Shown piece after piece: positions 7,105-11,390 of a stretch of 37,295 nt of DNA (positions within the stretch are counted from its first letter, which is position 1; every line of letters starts with the position of its first letter). This DNA is from an uncultured Flavobacteriales bacterium (GTDB lineage Bacteria > Bacteroidota > Bacteroidia > Flavobacteriales > Crocinitomicaceae). The translations under genes and the position numbers were made by a program. The notes under the pieces were generated by a model, which saw only the letters and a program-made list of their open reading frames with translations, ran no database searches and had not been told where the DNA came from. The stretch is taken from positions 1 to 37,295 of the forward strand of contig CAMLLB010000043.1 in NCBI GenBank assembly GCA_946480815.1, given 5' to 3'.

Positions 7105-8271
7105 TTATAACAGTGCTTGCTCAATATCTTCCCAAATATCTTCCAGGTGTTCCAGACCAATGCTCAAACGTACCAATCCATCTGAAATCCCGACTGCTTC
7201 GCGTTCTTCGGGTTTCAATTTACTATGTGTTGTAGAAGCGGGGTGTGTTGCAATACTTCTGCTGTCGCCCAAATTCGGTGTTAAGGAAAACAAGTTCAAT
7301 TTGTCCAGGAATTTACGACCTGCCTCCAAACCTCCTTTGATCTGAAAGGTCACAATTCCACCTCCGTATTTCATTTGATCTTTCGCAATGGCTTGTTGCG
7401 GATGGGAATCAAGGAAAGGATATTTTACCCACGCTACCTGCCCGTTTGCTTCCAAACGCTTCGCGATTTCGTGTGCCTGTGAGCAGTGTTTTTCCATTCT
7501 CAAATGCAGTGTTTCCAATGATTTGGAAAGGATCCAGGCATTGAACGGTGATAACGCGGGTCCACTGTGGCGGGCAAATCCCTGAATTTGAGCAATGATT
7601 TCTTTTGTCGAAACGATCAATCCGCCCAATACTCTTCCTTGTCCGTCCATGTACTTTGTAGCCGAATGGATAACAATGTCTGCACCCAATTTCAAAGGCT
7701 GCTGCAGAACCGGAGTTGCAAAACAATTATCGACCACCAACAGGACGTTTTTCGCTTTACAAATTGTTGCCAATCTTTTGATGTCAATAATGTCTAATCC
7801 GGGATTGGAAGGAGTTTCAATGTATACGATTTTCGTTTCGGGCTTGATTGCCTGTTCATAACCATCATAATCGATTGAATCCACATAAGTAGTCGTAATT
7901 CCCCATTTCGGAAGGATATTTACAAACAACTGATGTGTTGAACCAAAAACGGATTTGGAAGAAACAATGTGATCTCCATTCTGAAGCAGGGCTGCGAACG
8001 TCGTGAAAACTGCCGCCATCCCGGTTGCAGTTGCCCAAGCCGCCTCTCCGGCCTCTAAACGAGCTGTTTTTTCTAATAACTCATCTACATTCGGATTGGA
8101 ATATCGGGAGTAAATATTTGCTTCGATCTCATCCGAAAAAGCTGCACGCATTTGCTCAGCATCATCAAACACATAACTGGATGTCAGGTACAAAGGCACA
8201 CTGTGTTCTGCTTCCTGCGAACGTTCGTTTTGAATACGGATAGCTAACGTTTCGTTTCTGTAATTACTCAT
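7105..8271 (-). CDS. metZ: O-succinylhomoserine (or O-acetylhomoserine) sulfhydrylase, PLP-dependent
   Basis: I choose the ATG at 8271 (388 residues), which overlaps the upstream stop by 4 bp; the frame is open further upstream but overlaps osmC. The protein matches the Cys/Met-metabolism PLP family. It has NIYSRYSNPN, SVFGSTHQLF, VDNCFATPVLQQPL and HSATKYMDGQGR, where the Lys binds PLP, and near the end THPASTTHSKL and GLVRLSIGLEHLEDI. The SATKYxDGQGR form and the VFGST motif fit MetZ better than cystathionine gamma-synthase. It would make homocysteine directly from acylated homoserine and sulfide. With MetX in the same operon, the natural donor may be O-acetylhomoserine. It is the last gene of the met operon. 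Confidence 0.9.
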   Translation of the reverse strand: MSNYRNETLAIRIQNERSQEAEHSVPLYLTSSYVFDDAEQMRAAFSDEIEANIYSRYSNPNVDELLEKTARLEAGEAAWATATGMAAVFTTFAALLQNGDHIVSSKSVFGSTHQLFVNILPKWGITTTYVDSIDYDGYEQAIKPETKIVYIETPSNPGLDIIDIKRLATICKAKNVLLVVDNCFATPVLQQPLKLGADIVIHSATKYMDGQGRVLGGLIVSTKEIIAQIQGFARHSGPALSPFNAWILSKSLETLHLRMEKHCSQAHEIAKRLEANGQVAWVKYPFLDSHPQQAIAKDQMKYGGGIVTFQIKGGLEAGRKFLDKLNLFSLTPNLGDSRSIATHPASTTHSKLKPEEREAVGISDGLVRLSIGLEHLEDIWEDIEQALL

Positions 8272-8681
8272 GATTGATGTCTTACTTCTGTTTGAATGTT
8301 TATTTGCGGGTTTAATGAGGCGGAAACCGAGCAATATTTCTCATGGCTCAATTTCACTGCTGCAAGTGCTTTTTCCAGGTCTACTTCCCTGTTAAAGGTG
8401 AACACCAAATGAATTGTTTCAAAAGCCGCAGGAACTGCATCTTTTCGGTTCGCATCAATCGTTACTTCATAAAAGGAAACGATCTGACGCTGCTTTTGCA
8501 GGATCAACAGTACATCTATCGACATGCAACCGGCTAACGAGCTCGCCAATACTTCCATTGGCCGCATTCCCCGGTTCTTTCCCCCGATTTTTTCCGTTGC
8601 ATCCATTTTTATCGAAATTCCTGCTTCATTCTTCACCTCCAGGACAAAAGGAGATTCCACTAATTTTAAATCCAATTTCAT
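8268..8681 (-). CDS. OsmC/Ohr-family thiol protein within the met operon
   Basis: The protein has 137 residues. Two conserved cysteines occur in the usual OsmC setting: ASSLAGCMSIDVLLILQKQ (about residues 47-65) and KYCSVSASL (about 115-123). These form the peroxidatic/resolving pair in OsmC and Ohr, which reduce organic hydroperoxides. The gene overlaps both hom (stop/start ATGA) and metZ (ATGA), so it is firmly part of the methionine operon. A role in protecting or handling thiol or sulfur intermediates is possible but inferred. It is closer to the YhfA-like OsmC branch than to Ohr by the RGMRPMEVLASSLAGC opening (judgement by eye). Confidence 0.88.
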   Translation of the reverse strand: MKLDLKLVESPFVLEVKNEAGISIKMDATEKIGGKNRGMRPMEVLASSLAGCMSIDVLLILQKQRQIVSFYEVTIDANRKDAVPAAFETIHLVFTFNREVDLEKALAAVKLSHEKYCSVSASLNPQINIQTEVRHQS

Positions 8682-9925
8682 GATACTTCTTCGATTAATG
8701 CTGTTGATTCCGAAACTGAAACTACGGATTTATTGTTCAATTCAACACTATCCGGGATAACCGCCAGGAAATACTCGGAGGCGTCGTTCCAATCCAATTT
8801 TTGGATTTCATTGTAGTTGATCAAGCCGATTTTATAACTGTGAGAAGGTCCAGAATACGTCTCCAGCGTTTCTGTAAAAGCAAGCTGATCCAATTTTTCC
8901 TGTGAAGTTGCACTCACATACACTTTCAGTGAATAGTCGTTTTCGAAAGTCAGTACTTCTTCCGTTTTCGATTTCTTGTACTCATAAGCATAATCAAATT
9001 GCAACGCTGAAATGTCCGAAAGTACGGCACTCGCTGTCGGGTGACTTCCGGCACCTTTTCCAAGGAATAATTGTTTATCGGAAAACAAAGCTTCCACTAC
9101 CACTGCATTGAATTCATTCTCTACATTGAATGCAAAGTGATTGTTCGGAATTAAATGCGGGGCAACAAAACCGATGACCTGGTTATTGATCCGTGTTCCG
9201 AAAGCCAGTAATTTGATCTTCAATCCTTTTTCACGCGCATAAGTTGCGTCCCAATCTTTCAATTGACGGATTCCGTAATTCCAAACCGCATCCTGTTTCG
9301 CTGTAAAGCCAAAAGCGTGCTTCAAAAGCAAAACCAGTTTGTATTTTGCATCAAAACCATCTACATCCGAAGTCGGGTCCAATTCTGCGAAACCAAGATC
9401 CTGTGCATTTTTAAGGGCTTCATCAAAGGATTCACCTTCACCGGTTTTTGTCAGAATATAGTTTGTTGTCCCATTGACAATTCCATTGATATTGGAGAGT
9501 GAATCGTTGTTGTAATATTCTTCCAGGTTTCGGATAATCGGAATGGATCCACCGACTGAAGCTTCGTATAAAAACGATACGTTATTTTCTTTCGCCAGGG
9601 AAACCAATTCGTCCAGGTAATAAGCAATTAGTTTTTTATTGGCCGAAACTACGTGTTTTCCTGATTTCAATGCTCTTGTTACAATGGCATAAGCCGCTTC
9701 GTAATCATTGATCAATTCCACTACGACATTGATTTCTTCGTCGTTCAGGATCCGGTCTGCGTCCGTACTGAAATAGCTTGCATCAATGATCCGTTTCTTA
9801 CTTAAATCCTTAATAACAATGTGCTTGATTGAAGCCTGAAGCAAAGTTGTTTTGTTCAATACTTCGTATAATCCTGTTCCGACACATCCGAAACCAAATA
9901 ATCCTATTGTGAGTTGTTTTTTCAT
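8678..9925 (-). CDS. hom: Homoserine dehydrogenase (monofunctional)
   Basis: The protein has 415 residues. GLFGFGCVGTGLYEVL at the N-terminus is the NAD(P)-binding Rossmann motif. INGIVNGTTNYILT (about 145-158) and GFAELDPTSDVDGFDAKYKLVLLLKHAFG (about 175-203) are the catalytic-domain signatures of homoserine dehydrogenase. It converts aspartate semialdehyde to homoserine. There is no aspartokinase domain. Its place between metX and osmC suggests an isoform serving methionine synthesis, with any threonine-branch enzyme encoded elsewhere (inference). The stop overlaps osmC by 4 bp, and the start follows the metX stop after 1 nt. Confidence 0.94.
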   Translation of the reverse strand: MKKQLTIGLFGFGCVGTGLYEVLNKTTLLQASIKHIVIKDLSKKRIIDASYFSTDADRILNDEEINVVVELINDYEAAYAIVTRALKSGKHVVSANKKLIAYYLDELVSLAKENNVSFLYEASVGGSIPIIRNLEEYYNNDSLSNINGIVNGTTNYILTKTGEGESFDEALKNAQDLGFAELDPTSDVDGFDAKYKLVLLLKHAFGFTAKQDAVWNYGIRQLKDWDATYAREKGLKIKLLAFGTRINNQVIGFVAPHLIPNNHFAFNVENEFNAVVVEALFSDKQLFLGKGAGSHPTASAVLSDISALQFDYAYEYKKSKTEEVLTFENDYSLKVYVSATSQEKLDQLAFTETLETYSGPSHSYKIGLINYNEIQKLDWNDASEYFLAVIPDSVELNNKSVVSVSESTALIEEVS

Positions 9926-9926
9926 C

Positions 9927-10982
9927 TTAGTTAATCTTTAAAAATTGTTTAATGTGGTTTGTTAAGGTTTCCGTTTCTACCAGGAACCCGTCGTGACCGA
10001 AATCGGATTGCAAACGAACGAGTTTGGCCTGCGGTAAGCTTTTTGCGATTTCTTCCTGCTCTGTAATCGGGAATAACAGGTCCGAATCGATCCCGATCAC
10101 CAAAGCAGGCATGCGACATCGCTCCAATACGTCTTCGCCCCGATCCCTGAATACATTGTGTGAATCCATTGCTTTTGATAAAATCCAATAACTGAAAGCA
10201 TTGAACCGTTTTGCCAATTTTTCTCCCTGGTAATTTTGATACGAACTCGCTTTAAACTCATCGAAGCCCGAATTGTCTTTTTCGCTTTGAGTAATCCTGT
10301 AACCTTCATAGGTCCGGTAACTCAGCATTCCAATTGCACGTGCCGCTTTCAACCCTGCTTCACCCCCATTTTCCAGTTTCGCATAGAATGTAGGATCAGC
10401 CTGAATTGCCATACGCTGAGCCTCATTAAAAGCAATTCCGAACGGTGAATGTTTCAGGTTGGTAGCTATCGGAATGATGTGATCAATTTTATCCGGGATC
10501 AATAAAGACCATTCCAGTAATTGCTGACCGCCTAAAGAAGCCCCGATCAAAACATGGATGCGCTCTATCTTTAATTCTTTTCGAACCAATTCCAATCCTC
10601 TTGCCATATCCCGAATGGTCAGAACAGGAAACGAATCGAATTTTTCTTCCGGCGAAAGTTCTTCACTCAAAGGACCGGTTGATCCGTAAGCACTTCCGGG
10701 AACATTGACAGCAACGATGAAATAATTCTCAGGATCGAAACATTTTCCTTCTCCGAACAGATCACCCCACCATTCCTGTACCCGGTGATTTCCGGTAAGT
10801 GCATGACAAACCCAGATCACGTTTGATTGATCTTCGTTTAATGTTCCCCAGGTTTGGTAAGCCAGGGAAAGACCGGACAATTTTTTTCCCGATTCCAGGA
10901 AGAACTCGGAGCCGAAAGAATATACCTGTTGTAATGGTTGTAAAACCTGCCCGCTTTCGCGAACTGAATAATTTGTTGACAT
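9927..10982 (-). CDS. metX: Homoserine O-acyltransferase (probably acetyltransferase)
   Basis: The protein has 351 residues and an alpha/beta-hydrolase fold. IGASLGGQQLLEWS carries the nucleophilic Ser of the MetX GxSxGG elbow. VIGIDSDLLFPITEQ carries the catalytic Asp, and FGHDGFLVE near the C-terminus the catalytic His. VCHALTGNHRV forms the oxyanion side. It activates homoserine with acetyl-CoA (succinyl-CoA in some members; the choice cannot be fixed by eye). It is the first gene of metX-hom-osmC-metZ. The leader contains a SAM riboswitch and a poly-Cys leader ORF. No Shine-Dalgarno sequence is evident; the bases 6-15 nt before the ATG can pair with the leader ORF. Confidence 0.94.
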   Translation of the reverse strand: MSTNYSVRESGQVLQPLQQVYSFGSEFFLESGKKLSGLSLAYQTWGTLNEDQSNVIWVCHALTGNHRVQEWWGDLFGEGKCFDPENYFIVAVNVPGSAYGSTGPLSEELSPEEKFDSFPVLTIRDMARGLELVRKELKIERIHVLIGASLGGQQLLEWSLLIPDKIDHIIPIATNLKHSPFGIAFNEAQRMAIQADPTFYAKLENGGEAGLKAARAIGMLSYRTYEGYRITQSEKDNSGFDEFKASSYQNYQGEKLAKRFNAFSYWILSKAMDSHNVFRDRGEDVLERCRMPALVIGIDSDLLFPITEQEEIAKSLPQAKLVRLQSDFGHDGFLVETETLTNHIKQFLKIN

Positions 10983-10987
10983 GAAAA

Positions 10988-11046
10988 AACGTGTTGTAAA
11001 TGAAAAATAGAATTGACTGAAGAATTAACAACAGCAACAACACATT
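10988..11046 (-). promoter_or_regulatory. Candidate translational attenuator stem upstream of metX
   Basis: On the minus strand, AATGTGTTGT (11046-11037) covers the leader ATG and first Cys codons. It can pair over 10 bp with ACAACACGTT (10997-10988), with one G-U wobble. The second strand sits 6-15 nt before the metX ATG, where it would block ribosome binding. Later Cys codons (TGTTGT, 11033-11028) can also pair with ACAACA over 6 bp. A ribosome stalled on or translating the Cys codons would open the stem. The pairing is visible in the sequence; the mechanism is inference. Confidence 0.5.
11025..11045 (-). CDS. Poly-cysteine leader peptide MCCCCC upstream of metX
   Basis: A six-codon ORF reads Met, then TGT TGT TGC TGT TGT, then TAA. 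It lies on the transcript between the GC-rich leader hairpin and metX, 42 nt before the metX ATG. Five consecutive Cys codons in a leader of a sulfur-assimilation operon strongly suggest cysteine-dependent translational attenuation. Short poly-Cys ORFs are known as cysteine-responsive attenuators in mycobacteria; I am not aware of a described case in Bacteroidota in tandem with a SAM riboswitch. There is no clear Shine-Dalgarno sequence (preceded by CTGTCAATTA). It is too short for normal gene finders. Confidence 0.65.
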   Translation of the reverse strand: MCCCCC

Positions 11047-11059
11047 AATTGACAGGAAG

Positions 11060-11092
11060 AAAAATTAAAAGAGATTATCTGCCGCGGCAGAT
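11060..11092 (-). terminator. Candidate riboswitch-linked terminator hairpin
   Basis: The 16-bp perfect palindrome ATCTGCCGCGGCAGAT (11077-11092) is followed on the minus strand by a T-rich stretch (AATCTCTTTTAATTTTTC). It lies between the SAM aptamer and the leader ORF, where a transcription terminator of the expression platform would be expected. No clear antiterminator partner was identified by eye, so it could also be a simple intergenic palindrome. Confidence 0.5.
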
Positions 11093-11136
11093 GAAGATTA
11101 GAAATGTAACTGTTTGCTCTTTTCATAACACACTAT

Positions 11137-11271
11137 TTTATATTCGTCCGATACACTTTGTATCAAACTCGGAAGTTGGCACCGGTTTTCCAATCCTGAC
11201 AGTAATCGTCATGACTTAAAGTTGGTTGCCAGAGGGTCAAAAAGTCCGTCTCTCGCCTCTTCTGTATAAAC
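11137..11271 (-). promoter_or_regulatory. SAM riboswitch (SAM-I type) controlling the met operon
   Basis: The minus strand shows the SAM-I layout. P1 5' strand (TTTATA near 11270) pairs with TATAAA near 11140. The P2 region AGAGGCGAGAGACGGAC...GACCCTCT is followed by the conserved GGCAACC. A P3 hairpin ends in GGTGCCAACTTCC. P4 is GTTTGATAC/GTATCGGAC with a 5-nt loop. AGAGGCGAGAGA and GGCAACC...GGTGCCAA are the hallmark SAM-I core pieces. High SAM should switch off metX-hom-osmC-metZ. It could belong to a SAM-I/IV variant; a covariance search would settle this. Confidence 0.9.
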
Positions 11272-11390
11272 TACTTGTATTCTCGCTTAGAATTACGGCA
11301 CAAAGATTCTCAAAATAATTTGACAAATCAAAATAATTGAGCAACATTTTTGATTTTGATAATTAAGTGGCATTTTTTCAAAATTTTTGT

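Follow-up and report, generated by a model that had tools for sequence, protein, structure and literature searches.

The metX operon and its upstream region

The window, by which we mean the whole 37,295-nucleotide stretch of DNA analysed here, carries on its minus strand, in this order, a riboswitch, a leader ORF and the genes metX-hom-osmC-metZ. The product of metX (9927..10982) finds its best match in homoserine O-acyltransferase (TIGR01392, 328 bits, below the cut-off of 500), and the gene is followed by hom (8678..9925; homoserine dehydrogenase, NF004976, 345 bits, above cut-off), by a gene for an OsmC-family protein (8268..8681; PF02566, 61 bits, above cut-off) and by a metZ-like gene (7105..8334) encoding an O-succinylhomoserine sulfhydrylase (NF006003, 532 bits, cut-off 522). 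An earlier reading of the letters alone (hereafter the sequence-only reading) had assigned these genes to direct sulfhydrylation, which agrees with the passage of the PLP enzyme over its cut-off, MetX being a best match below its own. The riboswitch (11135..11272, minus strand) is a SAM-I riboswitch by its covariance model (RF00162; 48.3 bits against a gathering score of 44.4), and SAM binding is predicted accordingly. The AUG of the leader ORF lies 8 nt behind the aptamer, and on the other side of the aptamer a candidate -7 promoter box, AATCTTTG (11301..11308, minus strand), was picked out by eye; it is one base off the flavobacterial consensus TAnnTTTG given in PMC9723704.

A 33-codon leader ORF ending in cysteine codons

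The sequence-only reading had reported a six-codon ORF, Met-Cys5-stop, immediately upstream of metX. The letters are present at 11045..11025 of the minus strand (ATG TGT TGT TGC TGT TGT TAA), with five Cys codons, TGT TGT TGC TGT TGT, at 11028..11042 and the stop codon at 11027..11025, and 42 nt separate this stop from the metX ATG at 10982. As a six-codon unit the ORF was nevertheless dropped: its ATG is an internal Met codon of a frame that runs without interruption from an ATG at 11126. The likely ORF is therefore MKRANSYISNLHLPRQIISFNFSSCQLMCCCCC followed by a stop, 33 codons long (11025..11126, minus strand), and the same length of 33 codons recurs in all nine Fluviicola-type sequences (the window, L001-L006, L248 and L253). 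The Met preceding the Cys run may serve as an extra internal start. The earlier interpretation is partly borne out: its Cys-coded leader in a methionine operon stands, with 33 codons in place of six and with two features added that it had overlooked, the SAM-I riboswitch and the Met codons of the tail.

Conservation in Fluviicola-type relatives

Relatives were collected by a MetX scan of a named genome collection, and among the best 80 of 521 confirmed MetX stretches, which were the ones kept, 76 loci have a SAM riboswitch by Rfam. In six close relatives (L001-L006), whose MetX is 81-86% identical, the same riboswitch is present, although its score in L004 falls short of the gathering score, and the leaders end in MCCCCC, MCCCCCC or MCCCCCR. 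The Cys run is thus conserved in close relatives, where its lack would have refuted the sequence-only reading. One of these records, L005 (CP034120.1), is titled Glaciecola amylolytica and is probably misnamed, its locus being Fluviicola-like (MetX 81% identical, same leader type).

The body of the leader is not kept as a protein, because differences among the nine leaders are spread alike over codon positions 1, 2 and 3 (0.36, 0.35 and 0.38) and codon differences over all pairs comprise 97 synonymous and 662 other changes. In the absence of a codon-position bias in the body, the case for coding rests on the frame, the length and the tail. The body does contain a hairpin (11077..11092, minus strand) at a fixed codon offset. 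Since MAFFT misregistered the Cys runs and hairpins, pairs were counted on an ungapped codon register, where 43 of 45 cells over the nine sequences are standard pairs, against 10-21 when the register is slid by 1-3; the hairpin covaries, with pairs that change while the pairing stays. A terminator scan of the window found no intrinsic terminator between leader and gene, the single terminator-like site being this hairpin inside the leader ORF (11092..11077), so that the window lacks this mark of a trp-type transcription attenuator. The hairpin might end transcription when the leader is untranslated.

Composition of the leader tail

For the composition of the tail we used 114 distinct metX/metY leaders that had been selected without regard to Cys, although relatedness inflates the counts. 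In their last 12 codons Cys makes up 36.1% (494) against 3.2% in the body, and Met 11.8% (161) against 1.1%; at least three tail Cys occur in 99 of the 114 leaders and tail Met in 105. Both Cys codons are used (TGT 344, TGC 240), and runs of at least three TGY occur 71 times in the leader frame and once elsewhere. The same enrichment is seen among 33 representatives whose bodies are less than 45% identical (tail against body, Cys 41.4% vs 3.5% and Met 11.9% vs 1.5%), with Met higher in the tail in 29 of the 33 and lower in two. The enrichment in Met had not been predicted and could reflect internal starts.

Cys and Met are both metal ligands, and their joint enrichment would also suit a nascent Cys/Met-rich tail that stalls the ribosome making it on sensing a metal, a thiol or the redox state. 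Run length and spacing vary, however, the body of the leader is not conserved and the genes served are mainly metY/metX, and we regard such a nascent-chain sensor as quite improbable.

Distribution across Bacteroidota

Of 148 genomes taken from the phylum, 127 have a match to RF00162; by order, the match is present in 47 of 60 (the order of G001), 29 of 39 (that of G004) and 41 of 41 (that of G003). Pooling the window, those metX loci that carry a SAM site and the loci from the phylum and order scans gave 211 SAM sites, 201 of them unique, which are mostly best-scoring matches and no random sample; the next gene is metY/metX at 117 of the unique sites, metH at 47 and another gene at 37. We counted as a leader any ORF of 10-70 aa starting 3-16 nt after the SAM model, and as a Cys tail at least three Cys in the last 12 codons. 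Cys-tailed leaders by this definition precede 80 of the 117 metY/metX genes and none of the 47 metH genes; before metH, an ORF of 10-70 aa stands at that place in three of 47 sites, none of them Cys-tailed. The sequence-only reading had proposed to look for a conserved Cys run in related Crocinitomicaceae/Flavobacteriales; the arrangement of riboswitch and Cys-tailed leader extends over several orders of the phylum.

Sites whose P1 ends in TATAA[A/T] were treated as a class, defined only after the first loci were viewed: its 79 metY/metX sites all have the ORF and 69 have a Cys tail, whereas dinucleotide shuffles of the same stretches give an ORF in 13.2% and a Cys tail in 0.14%. The ten sites of this class that lack a Cys tail are L064, L034, L066, L166, L172, L178, L182, L205, L208 and L210, some of which retain one or two tail Cys. 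With other P1 ends, a Cys tail is found at 11 of 35 metY sites, nine of the 11 being Pedobacter with AGATAAATT; in Flavobacterium sp. SUN052 (L078) metY lies directly behind the riboswitch. In protein databases a 42-aa Pedobacter leader is annotated as a hypothetical protein or 'Natural product' (three matches).

These figures bear on the view that the Cys codons are a functionless chance run. The sequence-only reading had held five Cys in a row to be very unlikely by chance, which holds for their position and conservation and fails for four Cys plus stop alone: that pattern, TGYTGYTGYTGYTRA, turns up several times per genome (38 occurrences in eight whole genomes, against 4 for the reversed pattern), and three of 29 inspected places (L224, L239 and L246) look leader-like and lie 5' of a gene. 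A chance origin is nonetheless contradicted by the Cys tail at 69 of 79 sites, where shuffles predict 0.14%, which leaves it with a negligible probability.

Some SAM-linked leaders stand before other genes. In Chryseolinea serpens (G004), Cys leaders precede a PhyH dioxygenase gene (L097) and a sulfatase gene (L099), with weaker cases at L098 (two Cys, before an ELFV dehydrogenase) and at L101 (GTG start, before another sulfatase), and at L246 a Cys-run ORF lies behind a degenerate SAM-like stretch; the set looks as if it were a sulfur-starvation regulon. A leader ending FHCCRY precedes a PAPS reductase gene in G213 (L179). At L175 and L180, Ala/Pro-rich leaders with a GTG start, ending GCCCCC or CCCCCWLA, lie behind a SAM site and before genes for an amino acid permease and a RimK-like protein.

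A proposed SAM gate

How the riboswitch may act on the leader is suggested by relatives that have no leader. Within the family of G001, 52 of 100 genomes have a MetX match, 51 were examined (G323, at 32% identity, was left out) and 43 were classified: 27 have a Cys tail, six a leader with fewer than three tail Cys, and ten are leaderless. The unclassified genomes are G336 (contig edge), G337, G292, G284, G327, G319, G358 (metX behind metZ, with no adjoining SAM site) and G287 (P1 disrupted). In the ten leaderless relatives the AUG of metX itself lies 10-13 nt behind P1, that is, at the same place as the leader AUG elsewhere, and a translational SAM gate is therefore suggested. This shared place fits the statement in PMC2258182 that direct-type SAM-I switches have the ribosome binding site (RBS) in the 3' side of P1, and the sequences thus suggest that SAM controls leader translation through a translational platform at P1.

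Predicted masking of the metX start

In the window the start of the Cys run (11037..11047, minus strand) is predicted to pair with ACAACACGTTT (10987..10997, minus strand), the 3' arm of a helix that ends 4 nt before the metX AUG. Ten of 11 pairs form in the window and 11 of 11 in the other eight Fluviicola-type sequences, G-U counted. The helix is thus predicted in nine of nine, with a 3' arm of 11 nt that stops 1-4 nt short of the metX AUG; where bases change, G-U pairs preserve it, and no change is double-sided. In the divergent L019 another helix occupies this place.

When a ribosome was represented by a mask of 30 nt, the predicted unpaired probability of the metX start region rose from 0.15-0.37 in the free RNA to 0.39-0.77 with the mask on the Cys codons, against 0.23-0.38 with the mask on early codons. 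Among 60 shuffles of the spacer the gain was reached in at most 10% for seven of the nine sequences, in 30% for L003 and in 82% for L253, the latter two showing no clear opening by comparison with shuffled spacers. A ribosome on the Cys codons is accordingly predicted to free the metX start region, clearly in seven of nine. Beyond the Fluviicola type, the predicted value opens from 0.24 to 0.62 in L263 and from 0.41 to 0.61 in L255, while L254 is predicted not to open with the mask on the Cys codons.

Two other readings draw on this folding. The first is a SAM-gated translational coupling, in which leader translation itself opens the metX start, with the Cys/Met tail only adjusting the speed and not sensing cysteine. 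With a ribosome on the stop codon the metX start region is likewise predicted to be freed in part, and the leader AUG and metX AUG do share their place behind P1; coupling would, however, leave unexplained a tail of 36% Cys and 12% Met in leaders with unrelated bodies, and we consider it unlikely. The second holds that the run is kept as an arm of an RNA helix and that its reading frame is incidental, as the conservation of the helix with the metX start region in all nine Fluviicola-type sequences would allow. That TGY runs keep to the leader frame (71 cases, against one elsewhere), and that other clades show little pairing with the spacer in spite of their Cys tail, makes an incidental frame very improbable.

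In the metY operons the start region is unpaired at 0.53 on average over 71 operons, so it is not clearly masked, and the Cys run pairs weakly with the spacer over 79 leaders (mean z -0.82 vs -0.42 for the control). We rejected the idea that Cys runs pair with the RNA downstream of them in general, z < -2 being reached in 16 of 79 leaders against 10 for a control part of the leader. The second stage of the mechanism proposed below is therefore worked out for the Fluviicola type only; in the metY operons of other orders the front, a riboswitch and a Cys/Met leader, is the same and what follows differs. A scan of eight loci against Rfam (E <= 5) found only SAM together with sub-threshold U4 and DUF805b matches elsewhere, and nothing between leader and gene. 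By eye, Cytophagales loci (L008, L009, L012, L022, L043, L079 and others) have a conserved, probably structured element of about ACGgyCtrCCgAGTGACgGGtatGGtTA between the leader stop and metY, and Pedobacter loci (L024, L029, L033) an element CTTCC..GGAAGGYCC..GGGRTACGC before metY, again probably structured. Mucilaginibacter-type loci (L014, L017, L036, L071, L207, L214) have, also by eye, the segments AUGUGUU (in the Cys run), AACACGU and later ACGUGUU, which could form mutually exclusive helices.

Cysteine sources and the leader

In six Fluviicola-type genomes a cystathionine beta-synthase match spans nearly the full model (485-491 bits, cut-off 510) and a CysK-type match is lacking, which makes homocysteine the probable source of their cysteine. 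Two of the six have cysE matches of 108 and 76 bits, and in the other four no such match exceeds 43. By comparison, matches to cysE (163-164 bits) and of the CysK type lie side by side in G003 and G004, which have a Cys leader as well; G310 and G324 lack cysE but do have a CysK-type match.

In the family of G001, cysE was taken as present at 150 bits or more of TIGR01172, a line set after the scores were seen, none of which reaches the curated 210.65. Without G340 (partial match, 112 bits), 24 genomes have a tail and no cysE, three a tail and cysE, four neither, and 11 cysE and no tail (Fisher p 7.9e-5). The metX tree reduces this to six independent pairs, with cysE changing in the opposite way in 2.6 on average and in the same way in 0.2 (median p 0.5), and the negative association of Cys tail and cysE is consequently suggestive only. 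One pair of sister genomes on that tree, L271 and L275, sets eight Cys in a row against a lost run and cysE-cysK.

A probable two-stage sensor

We consider it probable that leader and riboswitch together form a two-stage sensor, in which SAM gates translation of the leader and a shortage of cysteine makes the leader ribosome stall and so switches metX on; we infer the translation, the stalling and the direction alike. In the first stage, P1 of the SAM-bound aptamer would hold the stretch just 5' of the leader AUG, leaving the leader untranslated. At low SAM, in the second stage, ribosomes would translate the 33-codon leader, with its tail of Cys codons preceded by Met. By the predicted pairing of its first part with the region of the metX start, the Cys run would keep metX off until scarce charged tRNA-Cys made the ribosome stall on the run, breaking the helix and allowing metX to be translated. 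Homocysteine synthesis would thus be maximal when SAM and cysteine are both short.

The occurrence of Cys tails before metY/metX (80 of 117 sites) and not before metH (0 of 47), the composition of the tail, the shared place of the leader and metX AUGs, the helix in nine of nine sequences and the probable cysteine source speak for this two-stage sensor. Against it stand L003, L253 and L254, helix changes by G-U only, the partial freeing by a ribosome on the stop codon, the weak pairing and masking in metY operons, the unbiased codons of the body, and G003 and G004 with cysE-cysK and a Cys leader at once. A broader proposal, which we put forward tentatively and hold to be somewhat less probable than its opposite, is that of a composite sensor over much of Bacteroidota: the SAM aptamer would gate the leader and the Cys and Met codons would read both amino acids, so that one leader would integrate SAM, Cys and Met at the homocysteine branch point. 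On this proposal the Crocinitomicaceae-like family would tend to lose the Cys input or the leader where cysE-cysK exists, and in Chryseolinea serpens the device would have spread to sulfur-scavenging genes such as sulfatases.

Relation to known systems

Polycysteine leader ORFs are known from mycobacteria, where the title of Canestrari et al. (2020; PMC8764745, cited in PMC13236596) calls them leaderless and where cys-operon leaders have been reported (PMC1262725). They share with the present ORF a short length, a Cys run near the stop, a place 5' of sulfur amino acid genes and a proposed response to cysteine; unlike the leaderless mycobacterial ORFs, the ORF of the window lies behind a predicted SAM-I aptamer of 138 nt, and in the present leaders there are Met codons too, metX/metY are served and the phylum is another. 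The uORFC-8-2 before cysS in Rhodobacterales (PMC8632094) is similarly a conserved uORF with tandem Cys codons and proposed ribosome-mediated attenuation, but it has two Cys codons, an intrinsic terminator and no riboswitch, and its target is cysS. The B12 (PMC11260477) and Mbox (PMC12810186) uORFs of M. tuberculosis resemble our case in that a riboswitch acts with or through a short upstream ORF; their ligands differ, and their abstracts describe no run of amino acid codons and hence no such second input.

The SAM-I switches whose RBS sits on the 3' side of P1 (PMC2258182) belong to the same aptamer family and, as presented there, form a direct translational platform; in our set, by contrast, the ORF behind P1 is usually the leader and not the enzyme gene, ten family relatives having the plain form. 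As in erm-type translation attenuation (outlined in PMC13236596), leader stalling would free the masked start of the next gene, here by prediction, whereas the signal would be an amino acid shortage and the leader itself would be gated by a riboswitch.

Among the papers listed by searches of one open-access library, we found no description that joins a SAM riboswitch with a Cys-coded leader. One report (PMC9723704) notes, without elaborating, signs of leader peptides ahead of amino acid operons in a flavobacterium, so an earlier sighting in supplements is possible. The SAM riboswitch and the Cys leader are thus each of a known kind, while their serial combination, the Met codons and the phylum appear to be new.

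Implications

SAM riboswitches are usually viewed as single-input switches on methionine genes. If the two-stage sensor is correct, many SAM riboswitches before metY/metX in Bacteroidota would instead work through a leader peptide, which brings in tRNA as the basis of a second input, and the whole would be a serial two-sensor gate built of RNA and ribosome only. The system would also allow the logic of a riboswitch joined to an attenuator to be studied in soil and water bacteria that can be cultured. Should homocysteine be the source of cysteine, one operon would feed both products, and the sensor would explain how bacteria that apparently make cysteine from homocysteine balance the two.
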